From Chlorobiota bacterium (GTDB taxonomy: Bacteria > Bacteroidota > Ignavibacteria > OLB7): DNA of 62,404 bases. The number at the start of each line of letters is the position of its first letter. Position 1 is the stretch's first letter. Positions 18,077 to 34,600 of this stretch are shown piece by piece. The notes beneath the pieces were generated by a model. That model was not told where the DNA came from and searched no databases. It worked only from the letters and a program-made list of their open reading frames with translations. The translations under genes were made by a program, and so were the position numbers. The stretch spans positions 1 to 62,404 of the forward strand of contig JAEUSP010000010.1 of the NCBI GenBank assembly GCA_016788565.1, read 5' to 3'.

Positions 18077-21000
18077 TTATGCTGTTCCGGCGGTCTCTAA
18101 TTTCCGCTTCACTTCCACCATCTTGAAGGCTTCGATCACGTCCCCTTGCTTGATGTCGTTCATGCCGTCAAGGGTGATGCCGCACTCGTAGCCTTGTTCA
18201 ACTTCGCGAACGTCATCTTTTATGCGACGCAGCGATGAGATGCTTCCGCTGAACACCTCCAGCCCATCGCGCAGCAGCCGGATTTTGTCGTTGCGGACGA
18301 TTTTGCCATCCTGCACGTAGCAACCGGCAATGGTTCCAACGCGGGAAATTTTGAAGATGTCGCGGACCTCCACGGTGGCCGTGATGACTTCTTTGAATTC
18401 CGGTTTCAGCATCCCTTCCAACGCCGCACGGACTTCGTTGACGGTGTCGTAGATAATCTGGTAGGTGCGGATTTCCACCCCTTCGCGTTCGGCCAATTTG
18501 CGTGCCTTCAGGTTCGGGCGGACGTGGAAGCCGATGATAATCGCGTTGGATGCCGTGGCCAGCAGCACGTCCGATTCGGAAATTTCCCCGACCGATTTCA
18601 TAATCACCGTCACTTGGACTTCCGGCGTGGAAAGGCGCAGCAGCGCATCGGCCAGTGCTTCCACCGAGCCGTCCACGTCGCCTTTGATAATCAGCGGCAG
18701 ATTCTGCACGCCGCCACGGGCGATTTGGTCCGAGAGTTCGTCCAGCGTTAAGTGGCGGCCTTGCTTGAACTCCTGTTCGCGGCGGACTTGCTGGCGGCGT
18801 GTGGCGATTTCGCGGGCATCGCGGTCGCTCTCCATCACCACAATCACATCGCCTGCGGTTGGTGGGCCGTCGAATCCAAGTATCTGCGCCGGTTCGGACG
18901 GGCCAACCTGCTGCAATCGCTGGCCACGCTCATCCATCATGGCGCGGACGCGCCCGTAGTGGTGGCCGGCCACAAAAGCGTCGCCAACTTTCAGCGTTCC
19001 TTTCTGCACCAGCACGGTTGCCACCACACCTTTGCCACGGTCAATTTCCGACTCGATCACCACGCCACGTGCTTGGCGGTTGGGGTTGGCTTTCAGGTCC
19101 AGCAGCTCGGCTTCCAGAAGGATTGCGTCCAGCAGTTTATCAACGTTCAAGCCTTGCCGTGCGGAGATTTCCACACACTGATATTTCCCACCCCATTGTT
19201 CCACCAGGATACCACGGTCGGCAAGCTGTTGCTTGATTCGGTCGGGGTTTGCGTCCGGCTTATCAATTTTGTTGATGGTGATAATCATCGGCACGTTGGC
19301 GGCTTGCGCGTGCGAGATTGCCTCCAGAGTTTGGGGCATCACTGCGTCGTCGGCAGCAACAATCAGCACCACAATATCTGTCACCTGTGCGCCGCGTGCA
19401 CGCATGGCGGTGAAGGCTTCGTGGCCTGGCGTATCAAGGAAGGTGATCTTCCGTTTGTCCGCCAGCGTCACGCTGTACGCACCGATATGCTGGGTGATGC
19501 CGCCAGCCTCGCCAGCCACCACGTTCGCGCTGCGGATGTGATCCAGCAAGGAGGTCTTGCCGTGATCGACGTGGCCCATAATCGTGACGATTGGCGCACG
19601 TTGCGTCAGCGTCTCCGGCGCATCTTCGGTGTCGGCCAGGGCATCCTCGGCAAACTCCTCGGTGAACTCGACGGTGTAGCCAAACTCATCGGAAACAAGC
19701 TGGATGGTGTCGCGGTCCAAGCGTTGGTTGATGGAGACCATCAGCCCAAGCCCGATACACTTGCCGATAACTTGGCTTACGTCCACATTCATCAGGTTGG
19801 CAAGCTCGGCAACGGTGACGAACTCCGTCACACGCAAAATTGTTGCTTCGGCACTTTCGCGTTCGCGCTGTGCTTGGGCGCGTGCTTCGTGCTGCGCACG
19901 TTTGTTTTTGCTGTGCTGCTGCCGCCCCGAACGTGAGTTGCTCCCCCCCATGCGGGAGAATGTTTGGCTAAGTTGTTTGTTGACCTCGTTGCGGTCAACC
20001 TCTGGCCCTTTCCGCCCACGCTTATTTCCTGCTCCGGTGGTTGCCCCGGTGGTTGTGCCGGTGCGCCCTGTGTTGCCTCCGGTTTGGGAAGCGTTCGGGC
20101 GTGGTGTGGTTCCGGCGGCCCCGCCGGTGGTTCCGCCAGCGGTTCGCGCCCGCGTAGCTTCGGCATTGATATCAATGGCTTTGCCGCGTGTGCGTGTGCG
20201 GGTGCGTTTTTTGTCTTTCTCCTTTTCCTTCTCCTTTTTCCCGCCGATCTCAATTTTCCCAAGCACTGTTAGCCCTTGCAGCTTGGGTGGTGGCGAGACA
20301 AACCCTGAGTCCTTGCCGCCACCTTCGGTTGCGACTGGAGGTGGCGGTTCTGGGGTTGGTTCTGGTTCGGGGATTGGTTCTGGTTCGGGGGCTGGGGGCT
20401 CTTCGGTTTCGCGGCCACGCATGGCAATGCGGCGAAGCTCCTCAATCCGCGAACGGCGTGCTGCCTCCAATTGGGCCGCACGTTCTTCGGGGCTGATGGT
20501 TGGTGTGGCTGGCTCGGCTTCTGTAGCTGCTTCCACAACTGGTGCTGGCGGCGGCGTTACCGGCTGGGGTGGCAAGTCGGCCACTGGTGCCGAAGCATCT
20601 GCGTTGCTGGTTTGCGCCGTTGCTGGGGAATGCGTGGGTTGTTGCGGCTGGACTGGTGCAACATCCGCCGGTTGGGTGTGTGGGATTTCTGCCGGCGTTG
20701 GCGGCTGGATCGCTGCCGATGGAGTGGGAGCAGTAGCCGCCGCAACCGGCGTATCCGCCTGGGCTGCGGTGGCCGGAAGCTCCGTAGCCACAGGTGCTGG
20801 CGGTTCGGGCTGCAAGGGCTGAACCGGAAGCTCGGGTGCTTCGGTGGCTGCCACAGGGGTCACTTCTTCGGGCGATTCTTCCGTTGAAGTTGAGTCGTCG
20901 GTGGCTTCTTTCCCTTTCCCTTTTTTTGCGGTGGCTGCCTCATCTTTGGGGCGCACCCGCTTTTCGTGGTAGGCATCTACCTTCTTGCGTTGCTTCTCGA

Positions 21001-21196
21001 TCTGCCGGTGCTCTTTCTCAAATTTGTCCATGACAAGGTCGTACATCTCCTGCGACAGTTGCTCTGTCGGTTTTGGGGAGATGTCGAATCCTTTGGCGCG
21101 CAGGAATTCCGCGATGGTCTCCTTACCGATGTTCAGTTCGGCAGCCACCTTGAAAAGCCTATAGGTTGCACCTTTTGCTGTTGTTGTTGCAGGCAT
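18077..21196 (-). CDS. infB: Translation initiation factor IF-2
   Basis: 1039 residues, long for the family because of a Pro/Ala/Thr/Gln-rich linker. The IF2-N module is at about 8-60 ([20 protein letters not shown]). Low-complexity and basic linker runs to about 440, then a second IF2-N-like segment ([20 protein letters not shown]). The G domain starts with [15 protein letters not shown] near residue 541; DTPGHEAF and NKIDKPDAN complete the GTPase motifs. Domain II and the fMet-tRNA-binding C-domain follow. It brings initiator tRNA to the 30S subunit. The gap to nusA upstream (214 bp) lacks a ylxR gene. Confidence 0.97.
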
Positions 21197-21410: not shown

Positions 21411-22793
21411 TTATTCTTCTTGCTTATCGGCTTCAACCGCCGCGTTTTCGGCGGCTGGATTTTCAGCAACTGCGCTTTCGGGTGCGGCTTGGGAAACTGG
21501 GCGGATGTCAATATCACGCAGTTCGTCTTCTTCAAATTCTGCCATCATCACTTTGCGTAGCTCTTCCAGCTTGGTTGGAGTCATTCCTTCAAACGATAGA
21601 AGCGTGGCCGGGTCCGCTTTCAGGAATTCTTTTGCCGTTTCGATTTCGGCTTCCACCAACAGCTTGAACAGGTCGTCGCCAACTTCCTCGCGGAATTCTA
21701 CCAGTTCGATATCCTCGCCCCCTTCTTTCACCAGCGAGATGGAGTAGCCGGTGAGTTTCATGGCAAGGCGGACGTTTTGGCCGTTTTTGCCAATGGCAAG
21801 CGACACTTGGTCATCGGGGACTACCACGGTTGCGGTGCGGGTGTCGTTGTCAATCGTGATCTCTTTCACTTTTGCTGGCTGCAACGCACGCGCAACAAAC
21901 TGCTTGGCATCGCTGGACCAGGGGATCACGTCAATGTTCTCGTTGGAAAGCTCGCGGACGATGGAGTGGATGCGCACCCCTTTCATCCCGACGCACGCGC
22001 CCACAGGGTCCACGCGCTCATCAAGGGACATCACGGCCACTTTTGCGCGCTCGCCTGGTTCGCGGGCAATCCCTTTCATCTCAATGATGCCATCGTAGAT
22101 TTCTGGAATCTCAATCTCAAACAACCTCTGCAGAAATTGGGGGTCGCTGCGGCTGATGATAATCTCCGGCTGGCCCTGCCCTTCGTGAACGCGCACCTCC
22201 TTCAGCAATGCCCTGACGGACTCTCCTTTCTTGTAGCGTTCGCGCCAGATTTGTTCGTTGCGGGGCATCCGCATCTCCACTTTGCCGTGCATCACGTACA
22301 CGTCGTTGCGGCGCACTTGATAGACTTCGGTGACGATAATCTCCCCCACTTTTTGGTTGTATTCCGCCACCACGTTATCGCGCTCAACTTCACGGACGCG
22401 CTGGCTTAGGGTTTGCGCGGCCATGGAGATCATTCGGCGGCCAAAGAACTCCGAAAGGTTTTCAAGGTTCAGCTCGGTTAGATGCTCATCGCCAACTTCA
22501 TAATTTTCGCCGGCGTGATTGGCTTCCTCGAGGGCAATCTGCAGGTTGGGGTCTTCGACCTCATCCACGACTTCGCGCAGCAGGTAGATTTCGATATCCC
22601 CTTTGTCCATGTTGACGATGATGTCGAAGTTGGAATCTTGGCCATACTTCTTGCGCACCATCTGGCTGAATGTGTCTTCAATAATTCCCTGCAACAGGTC
22701 GCGATCAATGTTTTTTTGGCGCGCCATTTCGGCAAACGCTTCAATGATCAACTGCTTATTGATGCTCGATTTGGCTGATTTTCTCTTGGCCAT
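21411..22793 (-). CDS. nusA: Transcription termination/antitermination factor NusA
   Basis: 460 residues. The N-terminal RNA polymerase-binding domain is at about 10-140, S1 at about 148-212 ([20 protein letters not shown]), and two KH domains follow ([40 protein letters not shown]). A short acidic C-terminus ([18 protein letters not shown]) ends the protein. It controls pausing, termination and rRNA antitermination. It follows rimP by 41 bp. Confidence 0.97.
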
Positions 22794-22834: not shown

Positions 22835-23311
22835 TTATAATTCCGGCTCAACCACTGCTCGCTTCACATCGGCAAGCGGGATGGTAAGCTGCTCGGCGGT
22901 GTCGCGGCGGCCGGCGCGGCGGGTTAGCGTTAGCGCGTCGGCGGTTGCTTCGGTAAGTCGGAAGATGTCGGTGCGGGCTGTCCCTTCTGGATCGGAGTAC
23001 TGAAGTTTCAGCAGCCGCCCGATGTTTTTGCGGTATTGCCAATCGAACTGAAGCGGGCGATCCAGCCCCGCCGAGGAGACCTCCAAGCGGTAGCGGCCAG
23101 CGATTGCTTCTTCGTGCTGATCCAGCAAGGCACTCACCCAACGGCTTAGCTCGGTTAGCTGATCCAGCAGCACCCCTTGTTCGGAGTCCACAATCACCTC
23201 CACCACAGCGGTGTTCCGCTGCCCGCGCCGCAAAACCTCCAACAGCACCATGCCGCGCTGTTCGGTTTCTTGGCGGATCATCTCTTCGATTTGTTGCGGC
23301 AGTCCGCTCAT
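22835..23311 (-). CDS. rimP: Ribosome maturation factor RimP
   Basis: 158 residues. LEVLRRGQRNTAVVEVIVDS, LTELSRWVSALLDQHEE and YRLEVSSAGLDRPLQ are the RimP signature (the SSAGLDRPL element is the best conserved). It helps 30S maturation. First gene of the operon: its predicted promoter lies ~215 bases upstream, leaving a long leader with a terminator-like hairpin near its 5' end. Confidence 0.95.
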   Translation of the reverse strand: MSGLPQQIEEMIRQETEQRGMVLLEVLRRGQRNTAVVEVIVDSEQGVLLDQLTELSRWVSALLDQHEEAIAGRYRLEVSSAGLDRPLQFDWQYRKNIGRLLKLQYSDPEGTARTDIFRLTEATADALTLTRRAGRRDTAEQLTIPLADVKRAVVEPEL

Positions 23312-23473
23312 TCGTTCGGGTTATTCCAAGCCGTGAAGGGCCTGCGGCATACGCCCCCAGACCCGTTGGCAATGTTGTCAGTATTGCCGCCTCCCTTTTT
23401 TCCTTGGTGTAGCTTCAGCCCCAACGGTTGGGTTGCGGTGCAATACCGTGCGGCGTGAAAGCAAATGGAGTGG

Positions 23474-23519
23474 AAAAAAAAGTGGGCACGCGTTTCCGCC
23501 CTTGCCCACCTGCGAAAGG
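23474..23519 (-). terminator. Terminator-like hairpin at the 5' end of the rimP-nusA operon leader
   Basis: On the minus strand GTGGGCA (23519-23513) pairs with TGCCCAC (23488-23482) and is followed by eight T (23481-23474). The loop AGGGCGGAAACGCG may pair further. It lies just downstream of the predicted promoter 23527-23558 and ~165 bases before rimP. No minus-strand gene lies upstream, so it can only act on this operon's own transcript, as an attenuator. Confidence 0.7.
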
Positions 23520-23526
23520 AGTGCTG

Positions 23527-23558
23527 CAAAGATACGGTTGCGCCGCAAGCCGACGCAA
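23527..23558 (-). promoter_or_regulatory. Promoter of the rimP-nusA-infB-pnp operon
   Basis: On the minus strand TTG (23558-23556), 21 bases, TATCTTTG (23534-23527). Box and spacing match the groS and tetR promoters in this window. The expected start is around 23521. Confidence 0.7.
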
Positions 23559-23604
23559 GCGGAGCAGGGGGAAAAGAAGGAACGTTACGGGTTGAGAACA
23601 TTGG

Positions 23605-23634
23605 TTGGGCGTGGGGGAAGTTGCCGTAACTTTG
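23605..23634 (+). promoter_or_regulatory. Promoter candidate for the 23758 cargo gene
   Basis: TTG (23605-23607), 19 bases, TAACTTTG (23627-23634), a full TAnnTTTG match, 124 bases before the ATG. The 446-bp gap 23312-23757 holds this promoter, the divergent operon promoter and its leader hairpin, and no gene. Confidence 0.6.
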
Positions 23635-23757
23635 CATCCCCTTTCCGTGATTGCCTGCGGTTGCAGTTGCTTGCTTCCGGGGCAGCGCGGTGATAGATGG
23701 TGATAGATATAGCACATCCATAACTCAGTTCAACCATACAAGCACATAGGTTTTTCC

Positions 23758-26700
23758 ATGCGCAGATTTCTACAATTCCCCATCGGCTGCGTGGCGTTGC
23801 TGCTGTTGTTTGCTGTTGCCAGCAATGCAACGGCGCAAGGGCGGCGCATCAGCAGCTTCCCCTACAACCAACTGTTCGGGTTCGTTGGCGCTGGCGTTAC
23901 TCAGTTCCCTACCACGAATGTGGATGGCGGCGAGTTCGTTGCTGATGATTCAACGGCTACAACGTGGGTTGGTGCCACAAGTGCAGGCTTGTACAACGCC
24001 GGCGGCAAACTCCGAATCCAGACAACAGTCGCAAAAATGCGACAAGGCTTTGTTTGGTATGGCGATTTTAGCAACGCCAACGCCGATAGCCTAAGCATTG
24101 CCTGGAATAAAGTGACGAACCTTCCTTCCGGAACCCGCATAAGCGAGCTTCGGATTGCAACGAACGGAGGTAGTGGTGGCACGTTCACCGATGTGCCGGG
24201 TATTACCTGGCCCACGTTCGATAATTCAACTACGCCGCAAACCGGAAACCTTAAAATCAAGCTGCCGGCATCGCTGCATGGGCGTTCGGATGTTCGCATC
24301 CGCATCTACGTCAATCATGGTGGAACTGGAAGCGGAGATCAGCCACACCTTGAAGTGGACAGCCTGAAAATCACCACCACCTGCCTTGGCCCCGCAACCG
24401 CTGCGTTCGATTCGGCGGGGGCGTTTGGAACCCAGAATCTGTGGCTTTACTTCAAAGCAGGCCTCCGCACCGATTCGATGCTGGTGATTAAGCGGAATGG
24501 AACGTCCGCACCAACGGCAATGCCAGCCGACGGCACACGCTACGCCGCCGGGCAAGGGCTGAATGGAACCGATACGGTGGTGTTCTGGGGGCCGGCAACC
24601 AAAGCACGCGCCTGCGTTGATAGTCTGCAAAGTGCCACCACCTACAGCTTCACCATCTACGGCTGGCGGACTTGTTCGGCCACGTATTCGGTGGGGGATA
24701 CGATTGCTGCGGCAACGCTATCGGCCTGCACCGCAACGCCGGATAAAATCACGAACATCACCGCACCCCATGTTGATTCCACAACGGTGCAGTTCGATTT
24801 CACCACCGGTTTCCGCACCGATAGCGTGCTGATTGTCCGCCGCAAAAATGCCCCGCCTGGGATCGGCCCATCGCCGGGCAAACGGTACTTCGTTGGGCAG
24901 ATTATGGGGCTGGATAACACCGTTGTCTATTTCGGCCCACCCACCACCCCGGTAACGGCAATTGGCCAGTTATCGGACTCGACTTACGTCTATGCCTTCT
25001 ACGCATTCCAGTCGTGCAATGCCACCTACAACGGCATTGGGTCGCTGGATACTGTGCGGATGCTCTGCACCGGGCGGCCACGCGATGTGTCGTCGCTGAC
25101 CAGCCGCTACACTAGTTCCAGCAGTGCCGGGTTGCAGATTTCGCTGACCGGGTTTGCCGACCGCTACATCGTCTTCCGCGACGGCGGCAACGGGACACGG
25201 CCAACGCTGACCAACGGAACCGATTACCCCGTTGGCACAATCGTTGGCGACGACACTGTGAAATACTACGGAACCAGCCGCCGCCCAGCCATTACCGGGT
25301 TGCCTTCTTCAACGGCGGTCACGTTCCATGCGTTCGCGGTTCGCCAGTGCAACAGCACCTACTCTAATGCTGGGGCCTCCGCCACAGCAATCACAAAGGC
25401 CGCTTGTGCCGCCAGCCCAGATATGCTGAACGTGCAAGGCATCGAGATTCTGAAAAACGTGGCCGACACTCTGCAACTCCGCTGGCGGAAGCTGAACGGT
25501 GTGGATAGCTTTGTGGTGGTTGCCCGCATTGACTCCACCCCGGGCTACGCGCCACGTAGCGGTTGGATGTACGACAAAACCGATCAGTTCGGCGGGGCCT
25601 ACGTTCTGGCCACCGTGCCAGCAACCGATACGCAAGCAACAATCCTGCGATTGCCAAGCAACACCGCCTACTTCTTGCAGATTTACGGGCTGCGTGCCTG
25701 CGATCTTGCCTACAGTTTCAGTTCGGCAACGTTGGCGTTTGCCACCCCTGGCACTCAGGCTTCGCAACGGTTTGCGGTGCGGGCCAAAACCTTGCCAAGC
25801 CTAAACTTTGGCTTTGCCACCATCACCTTCACCAAAGCCCCGTTGGCCGATGGCAGCTTGCTGATAACCCGCCGTGGCGGCCCCCCCGGCCCAGGAACCC
25901 GAGGACTTCCTTTCTTCCGCGCCGGGAAATCGCCGGTGGATGTGGTGAGCAGCTACCGCTGGTGGAGCTTTAACCGCTCGGGGCTGGATAGCTTCCAGTA
26001 TGACATGCGGCTTGATGTCACAGGAATCACCGGGGTGAAAGACACCAATGATTTAGAGATTCTCTACCGCCCACATCCCGATAGCGTGTGGCTGGATATC
26101 ATCACCACCGCGCGGGAAACCGGCGATGGAAAACTGGTGATCCGCGCCAACAATCGCCACTTCTTCAGCGATTACGCAATCGGTGCCAACAGCAAAAACA
26201 ACGTGCTTCCGGTGAAGCTGATCTCCTTCACCGGATACGCCCGCCCGGGCCAAGCAACGCTCCGCTGGCGAACCGCTGGCGAACTGAACACACTTGGCTT
26301 CCGGGTCTATCGCGCTCGCGTGGCGGCAAACGGGGTTGCTGGCGATCAGGCAATCGTGGCTGATTACATCAGCGATAATCGCTTGCGCAGCAACGGCATC
26401 ACCACCACCCCGCGCGACTACGCACTGATTGACACCGACGATGCTTTACTCACCCCCGGGAACTATCAGTACCGGTTGGAAGAGGTCACGGTGGATGGAA
26501 CAACCGAAGCAGTAGGGGAGTTGATGGTGGAAGTTGGCCAGGAATCTATCGGCGCGTTGCAGTTTGGCCCGATAACGCCAAACCCAACAACCGGAGCAAT
26601 GAGCCTGCGGTTTGCCTTGCCGGAAGAAAGCAGCGTCCGTGTGGCACTGCACGACCTAACCGGGCGCGAAGTACGGGCGCTGGTTGCCGACGAACAGATG

Positions 26701-31627: not shown

Positions 31628-34600
31628 CTACCGGCCAACAACCGTCACCACTGCCCGCCCGATAATTTCGCCGCCGTTGCTCCGCACCACCACCATGTAG
31701 TTCCCCGAAGGTAGCCCGGCGGTGGGCCAGCGGTCGCGGTACAGGTTGGCTTCGCGATGTTGGCCGGCTATTGGTGTGGCAATTTTCCGCCCCAGCATAT
31801 CCCACAGCTCAAGCGTCACGCGGCTTGGTGTGCGCAGCCGCGATTCTACCAGAAGTTCACCTCCACTACTCCACGCAGCCACCTGAGCCTGATACTCCGG
31901 TTCGGGGGAAACTGAGGTTGCAATCTCCCCGGTTGTGAAGCTCCATGTTGGGGACCATTGGCTTGGTCCCAACCGGTTGTTCCCCATCACACGCCAGTAG
32001 TATTTGCTGTTGGTTTGCAACCCGCTGTACCCGAACTGCGGGGCGGTAACGGAATCGGCATCAATCAGCGTGGCGGAGAAATCCTGGGCCGAAGAAAGCT
32101 GCACCCGATACCAGGCCGCGCCGGAAAGATCGTTCCAGTAAAGTTTCCGGGTTGTGGGGACCGCCGCCGAATCGTTTTCTGGAGAAAGCAGCGCGGGGCC
32201 AACGGATAGCTGCGGCGTTGCCACCTTCACCGAATCAAGTATCCCGGTTCCAAGATTCCAGTAGGTTCCCCCCCCCGATTGCTGAAGCCGCACGGGGCGA
32301 ACCAGATAGACGTTGTTCCCATCCGGCGCGGCAAGGTCGTGAAAAATGGAGGTGGCAATGGGGGATTGCGTCAGTCGGGTGAACGGGCTATCAATGGAAG
32401 CGGCGCGGTAGATATGCCACCCCTGAACGCTGTCATCTGGCAAGCCCCACTCCAACCGAACCAGCGGCCGCGATGACGGTGTGGAAACGGAAAATCCCAC
32501 CGCCGATTTCACAACGTGCAGCCGCAAGGTTGGGTCCCCCATCAGCGCGATGTGGACCCCACGGGCGTAGAGTTGGTTGCCGGGGATGTAGCCCTGGCTG
32601 TTGTTTTGGGTTTGCCGAACGCTTTCGCCGATTGTTCCCCCGGTTCCCATCTGGTGGAAAAACCAGTTCGGGGCGTTCCCTGCCCAGCAGACCGCAAGCG
32701 AGGGGATTGCCCCGCCCAACGGCATTCGCAGAAGTGTGTTTTGCGCCCGCTTCCAATCGTAGAAATTGTTGCCGTACAGCAACGTGAAGGTGCTGCGGAA
32801 CGGTTGCGAAGCCCACAAACTGCTGGTTAGCCGGTTGATCCCAATCACAGTGTCGCTTCCCCGCCCGCCGGCGTAGCTGAACAGATATGCGCTGTCCTGA
32901 AGCTCGCGCAGATATTCCCAATTCCGCCCCGACTTCACCCCGCTGCTTCCGAACAACGCCCCGATGTTGCGGAACGCATTGGCCGAGACCTCCGGTTGGA
33001 TGTTATCAAACGAAGTCTCGATGTACCCCCGCTCCGGCACCCTCCCCGCGGCCCCGGTGCGGAACTGGTGGTTGGCATCGAAGTAGCGTTTCAGCAGAGC
33101 GGCTTCGGTTTCGTTCAAGGCGGGAAGATTCCCCAGCCACAGCCGCCCCACTTGCAACTCAACATCGGAGGGGAGCTCCGATTGGTCGAACTTCCCGTCG
33201 CCGGTGATGTTCGGGGTTTGCACGCCGTTCCCTTTTGCATCATAGACGATGGAGTCAGTCCAGGCCCCGTTCATCTCGCCGAAATAGACATCGGCAGGCT
33301 GCGCGCCAATCCGCTCGGCAACGCCATCGGGGGCAAAATCGCCGGAGTATGCGGGGAGGAAATCGCCCACAAACAGCACTGCTTTCAGGTTGGCGGAATC
33401 GGCGCGGTAGCGGGCAATAATGGTGTCGCGCATGGCGGCGGGGGGAATATCCGCTGGCTGAAGCATGGTTTCCACCTGCCAGCCATCGCCAACAAGGTCG
33501 GCACGGAACTGCTGCAACTGGGGGGCAAGCTGGGGCGCAAGATTTTTTTCAACAATCACCAATATCCCCCCGCGCTTTTCCACAATCGGGAGCTCGATTC
33601 CCGCCGCCAGATAGCCGTAGCCGTTCAGCAGTGGGGTGGTTTTCAGGATGCGATACTCATACTGCTTCCCAAGCTCCACCGGCGTGTGCCGCCACGTCGC
33701 GGCGGTTCCGGGAAGCTGCGCAACGTTGCGCCAGGGTTCGGCTGGGTTGGTTCGCACCGCCACGCTGAACCCGGTTGCCAGCGGGTCGGCTGGCCAGACC
33801 AGGGTGATGGAGGGGGGATTGCTGCTGGTGGTTGCCGAAGCCATCACGGCAAAGTCGCGCCCAACGGCGCGGTCAATGATGCTGAAGTTTCCGTTGCTGC
33901 TGTCGGCGTTGGCTGGGTTGGCCACATCACTAATCCGAATCCGGCATTCCGTGGAGGGGGTGTTGGGAACAACCCAGGCGTAGCTTCCGGCGGCGGCGGG
34001 GGTGTTGCCAACCAGTGTGGACCATTTCACCCCGCCGTCGGTGGAGAACTCGATGCGAAGGTCCGCCACCCCTTTCGATCCCCACGTAATCGCCCGTTGC
34101 GACCCCACATCCCACACTTGCCCACCATCGGGACCAAACAGCGTCAGCGGCTGGGGCGCGACGTAGCGTTGGTAGCGGATGATTGCCCCGCTATCGCCAA
34201 CGGCAACGCCAACGGTGTCGTTAAAAAAACTGATGGAGTAGAGGTTGTGTGGGGTGCTGGAGTATTCGGCATTCCACCCCGTGCCGTTGTATCGAATCAC
34301 CGTCCCGCGATCGCCCACCGCCCAGCCGTTTGCGGGGGCGGTGAAGCAAAGGCTCCATAAATCGAATCCGGTGCCGGAGTTTGCGCTGCGCCAGGGGGTC
34401 GCGCCACGGTCGCGTGTGGTGCGGATGATCCCTTTGGCTCCGGCAATCCACCCGGTGTCGGCACCGGTGAACCAGACGGCATAAAAGTTTGTTCCGATTG
34501 GGGCCGCGGTGTTGGTTTGGGGAATCCATTCGCTGGCCAGGTTTACGTTTTTCATCAGTGCCCCGGTTCCCGGGTTGGCGGTAGTCCCAACTGCCCAGCC

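Follow-up and report, generated by a model that had tools for sequence, protein, structure and literature searches.

The closest described counterpart of the element studied here is the rimP-leader of Naville and Gautheret (2010), which in the main text of their paper has a GGGc(...)gCCC stem and is proposed to mediate feedback by NusA (PMC2965389). In that paper the conserved stem was taken to indicate a protein that reads its sequence, and Bacteroidetes are not mentioned in the main text, its supplements aside (PMC2965389). In the S. agalactiae gbs0413-0418 leader, which precedes rimP-nusA-infB, transcription stops at a predicted intrinsic terminator 31 nt from the start; short and long RNAs arise from one start, and NusA feedback was suggested from these RNA end data (PMC4448216). 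In B. subtilis, NusA stimulates intrinsic termination in the 5' leader of the operon that encodes it (review PMC12288461). A report of 2021 lists a structured 5' element of rimP in F. psychrophilum as conserved in Flavobacteriaceae and without an Rfam hit (PMC9723704).

The window analysed here, 62,404 nucleotides of DNA, is contig 77 of a 4.58 Mb genome. Its NusA has its nearest named relatives in Ignavibacteria and Candidatus Kapaibacterium (~60% identity). An earlier note on this DNA had read a terminator-like hairpin at the start of the rimP-nusA-infB transcript and proposed attenuation with negative feedback by NusA. The window element is of a known kind and fits the already described rimP-leader. 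We consider it probable that the operon is attenuated by this promoter-proximal terminator, with NusA most likely raising the stopped fraction.

A terminator hairpin follows the predicted promoter of the rimP-nusA-infB operon

The operon lies on the minus strand. It consists of rimP (22835–23311, start codon at 23311; an ORF with a DUF150_C/PF17384 match and, in the leader loci, a RimP profile match), nusA (21411–22793; an ORF with a NusA_N/PF08529 match), which encodes the proposed effector of the attenuator, and infB for IF-2 (18077–21196; an ORF with a protein motif, named by sequence reading). nusA is downstream of the terminator, and the same holds in the genomes where rimP was undetected.

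The promoter (23527–23558, minus strand) is composed of a TTG at 23558–23556, a spacer of 21 nt and the -7 box TATCTTTG at 23534–23527, an exact match to TAnnTTTG. This is the single full box on the minus strand between the divergent gene and rimP (23312–23757), and the promoter is conserved in the sister species. A sigma-70 promoter scan is unsuited to Bacteroidota. The transcription map of F. psychrophilum, in its description of sigma-A promoters, locates the box at -12 to -5 (PMC9723704). With this register and the box at 23534–23527, the start is predicted at ~23522, and the terminated RNA would be ~49 nt long, close to the ~45 nt expected by the earlier note. About 120 bp 5' of the promoter (~23535–23660; TGCAAAGTTACGGCAACTTCCCCCAC...) are also strongly conserved with the sister species and may contain a regulator site.

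The terminator hairpin GGTGGGCAAGGGCGGAAACGCGTGCCCACT (23481–23510, minus strand) is supported by the sequence, the fold and the leaders of relatives. Its outer stem is formed by GGUGGGCA and UGCCCAC(U), followed by an internal loop AGG/G and an inner stem-loop GCG-GAAA-CGC. A run of eight U (T8, 23474–23481, minus strand), conserved in relatives, follows the stem. The fold energy of the 52-nt RNA is -18.9 kcal/mol (z -2.1). Promoter, GTGGGCA/TGCCCAC hairpin and U-run are thus present as the earlier note had described them, and the gap from the U-run to the ATG of rimP, put at ~165 nt there, measures 162 nt. By comparison with the sister species, this remainder of the leader (23312–23473, minus strand) has diverged in its middle part; the promoter and the hairpin are nearly unchanged between the two close species. 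The last ~65 nt before rimP (23312–23376) are near-identical in the sister species (L003); a GGGUCUG/CAGGCCC hairpin among them may be a second element, acting on translation. No match to Rfam 15 models was found in 23000–23800 at E values up to 10.

Only ~12 nt of RNA separate the predicted start from the hairpin, and no antiterminator is visible. An upstream antiterminator or leader peptide would not fit into this length, and any control would therefore act via the polymerase or a protein. In the full-leader fold, the U-run pairs with the downstream AAAAAAGG; this candidate antiterminator was rejected, since it would form too late and the stretch is missing in the sister species.

The hairpin might instead terminate transcripts that come from upstream, such as a neighbour gene, a tRNA or an antisense RNA, and stand outside the rimP transcript. 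The tRNA-Gln gene directly upstream in several Bacteroidales and metY, which lies directly 5' of the rimP operon in E. coli, count for this. In the window, however, the gene 5' of the leader is divergent (plus strand, from 23758), so nothing on that side is left for the hairpin to terminate, as the earlier note had also stated; upstream on the minus strand, the nearest long gene ends at 31628, beyond two plus-strand genes. In addition, a TAnnTTTG box stands right before the hairpin in the window and in the majority of relatives, and the interval between the hairpin and rimP has no other full box. We therefore regard a terminator for upstream transcripts as very improbable.

This arrangement rarely occurs at other genes. 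The hairpin pattern has a single occurrence in the 4.58 Mb genome (≤3 mismatches). With 2 mismatches allowed, its core was found in just 4 of the 197 class genomes, once in each; all four are from the window's family, and the place is the rimP leader in every case. In 697 kb of control DNA (both strands, from the same genome and four relatives), 502 exact TAnnTTTG boxes were counted, and a compact terminator stood ≤60 nt downstream of only 7, the window's included. By a lax rule, 14 of 88 genes that have a divergent neighbour show a terminator-like hairpin ≤200 nt upstream, and rimP of the window is one of them.

The terminator is conserved before rimP throughout the phylum

The regions 5' of rimP were taken from the window's class and phylum. 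Of the 118 phylum loci, 111 carry a terminator in the 200 nt 5' of rimP; in dinucleotide shuffles of the same stretches the figure is 12%. In an independent named collection, it preceded the RimP gene in all 75 loci, which include Pedobacter, Mucilaginibacter, Hymenobacter, Algoriphagus, Alistipes and Flavobacteriales as well as members of KSB1 and Calditrichaeota. Hairpin conservation in relatives had been proposed in the earlier note as a test of its reading, and a compact terminator is found at 190 of the 193 combined loci, a count that takes in a few upstream-gene terminators (for example at L022) that are not leader elements. Of 189 leaders, 111 have an exact TAnnTTTG box in the 60 nt that precede the hairpin, versus 5% in shuffles and 7 of 188 in the control stretch 120–180 nt upstream; the exact box was used because matching 5 of 6 positions gave 51% in shuffles and was uninformative. 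The terminated RNA is estimated at a median of 45 nt, and the distance from the terminator to the start of the RimP profile match has a median of 40 nt among relatives.

The stem varies among families. It is GUGGGC...GCCCAC in the window, GAGGGGAC...GUCCCCUC in much of Bacteroidia, GUGAGCGUC...GGCACUCAC in family f31, UCGCCCC...GGGCGA in f9 and UAGCCC...GGGCUA in f4. The stems differ yet stay complementary, indicating that structure and position are kept while the sequence changes. This covariation is read directly from the sequences (GUGGGC/GCCCAC versus AUGGGC/GCCCAU) and from the variety of complementary stems; a MAFFT alignment put the 5' arms in the wrong place. By a crude rule, a GGG/CCC stem is present in 122 of 190 leaders. 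The inverted stem, CCC...GGG with a C-rich 5' arm, is present in about 30 of the 190, mostly in the window's own class (38 leaders were flagged, a handful of which are second or upstream hairpins). Because of these inverted stems, a factor reading GGGc...gCCC cannot be the general rule.

The same variation bears on the possibility that the ~49-nt RNA is a trans-acting small RNA, the operon being expressed through readthrough. In S. agalactiae, a discrete short RNA is reported that shares its start with the long one (PMC4448216). However, a trans-acting RNA should retain a seed, whereas the stem is wholly different between families and just ~12 nt of RNA exist besides the hairpin. There is little chance that this explanation is the right one.

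Two further arrangements were observed at rimP leaders. Tandem terminators ~50 nt apart, mostly a G-first stem and then a C-first stem, precede rimP in families f22, f32, f39 and f27 and in a named Rhodothermales MAG (L032, L033, L035, L036, L037, L039, L057, L199; L052, L103, L104). A tRNA-Gln (TTG) gene is located 5' of the leader terminator on the same strand in a number of Bacteroidales and related MAGs (L187:1880-1953, L191:1884-1955, L202:1881-1952, L238:1813-1886, L241:1883-1956, L244:1694-1765), which resembles the way metY (tRNA-fMet) and rimP are arranged in E. coli.

Where rimP is undetected or displaced, the terminator precedes nusA

Families f13 (10 genomes) and f18 (8 genomes) belong to the same class as the window. 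Neither a RimP_N match nor a DUF150_C match was found in any of their 18 genomes; the DUF150_C profile is weak in this class and misses G263, which is RimP_N-positive, so that absence of rimP here means that it is not detectable. A hairpin with a U-run stands 5' of nusA in all 18 genomes (10/10 in f13 and 8/8 in f18). In f13 the hairpin is GACGCUCC(U/G)AAAAGCGUC or a close variant and follows a TATATTTG-like box. In f18 most genomes have a UGGGC...GCCCA-type stem; in G150 and G275 a short hairpin, missed by the scanner, was found by eye.

The genomes are G018, G027, G036, G045, G188, G224, G234, G248, G253 and G278 in f13, and G150, G213, G230, G271, G275, G290, G297 and G305 in f18. They are near-complete, and the lack of detectable RimP domains suggests that these families have lost RimP, a widely conserved factor of 30S maturation. 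In G253 (L296, L319), nusA is present twice, both copies preceded by a leader hairpin, by duplication or contamination.

In family f10, rimP and nusA are separated in genera g12 and g37 and adjoining in g18 and g115. A convincing leader terminator before rimP was found in none of the 13 f10 loci. In g18, g37 and g115 (5 genomes), a conserved promoter-like element is followed by a terminator, which stands 28–51 nt ahead of the NusA_N match. No terminator was found at this pre-nusA position in g12 (7 genomes) and g110. Since g12 has no terminator between a promoter-like element and nusA, the terminator has been lost in this genus and is dispensable. The presence of the terminator before nusA where rimP is undetected, or has moved or lacks a terminator, points to nusA rather than rimP as the target.

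Discussion

In the proposed mechanism, the intrinsic terminator, placed ~12 to 49 nt past the predicted start, would act as an attenuator of the rimP-nusA-infB operon. Some RNA polymerases would halt after an RNA of ~49 nt, and the remainder would read through into the operon. Abundant NusA would most likely raise the stopping fraction and so exert negative feedback on its own synthesis. We infer that polymerases do stop here in vivo, though only in part, and that NusA determines how many of them do so. Attenuation of the operon, as the earlier note proposed, is strongly supported by the conservation of promoter, hairpin and U-run across the phylum. Its NusA feedback is supported indirectly by the terminator that stays with nusA, and has precedents reported in B. 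subtilis (review PMC12288461) and proposed in S. agalactiae (PMC4448216).

A real attenuator could also be a fixed throttle, or respond to an input other than NusA, such as NusG, sigma release, elongation rate or RimP. The hairpin is strong (-18.9 kcal/mol) and the U-run perfect, so that no helper may be needed, and the widely varying stem sequence and polarity argue against one sequence-reading protein. The strong stem with U8 is unlike a weak NusA-dependent terminator, and NusA might be unneeded. On the other hand, a RimP sensor leaves unexplained why the terminator keeps to nusA where rimP is undetected or moved, and NusA autoregulation through leader termination is reported in B. subtilis (PMC12288461). 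A fixed throttle or another input is therefore unlikely, though it deserves more weight than the two explanations discussed above.

Feedback by NusA is the preferred reading. NusA is the best candidate: besides promoting intrinsic termination, it is the product of a gene close downstream, and in B. subtilis it regulates its own operon through the leader (PMC12288461). We more tentatively suggest that the rimP-leader may be in fact a nusA-leader, ancestral in Bacteroidota, which would halt polymerase in the first ~50 nt and so sense the NusA level just at the sigma/NusA exchange on the early elongation complex. Because the stem is freely inverted or replaced, such sensing would need no sequence-reading RNA-binding step. 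NusA affects termination at many intrinsic terminators, and the constancy of its level matters for gene expression generally. The element would be a simple two-state readout, and it marks the operon start throughout the phylum.

The window element resembles the rimP-leader, as presented in the main text of its description, in being a short intrinsic terminator in the rimP-nusA-infB 5' UTR, in its stem (GUGGGCA...UGCCCAC for GGGc(...)gCCC) and in having no antiterminator, with NusA feedback proposed for both (PMC2965389). It differs in standing right at the promoter, 162 nt from the gene, whereas 4–130 nt is given in the published text as a reported observation, not a criterion, and most relatives are inside that range; the B. 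subtilis rimP leader is ~180 nt long according to the same text (PMC2965389). Some members of the window's class also differ from the published stem in having the inverse one (CCC...GGG), and these families speak against a sequence-reading protein as a general rule. The S. agalactiae leader belongs to another phylum and has another promoter type, and it was seen by RNA-seq, whereas the element here is a sequence prediction (PMC4448216). NusA autoregulation was demonstrated in B. subtilis, while the window element is known from its sequence. The F. psychrophilum element is from the same phylum and is listed without a mechanism in the entry devoted to it (PMC9723704). The analysis adds a survey across the phylum and cases in which terminator and rimP are uncoupled: the lineages in which rimP is undetected or moved turn the question of RimP versus NusA into a genome comparison, which favours NusA.
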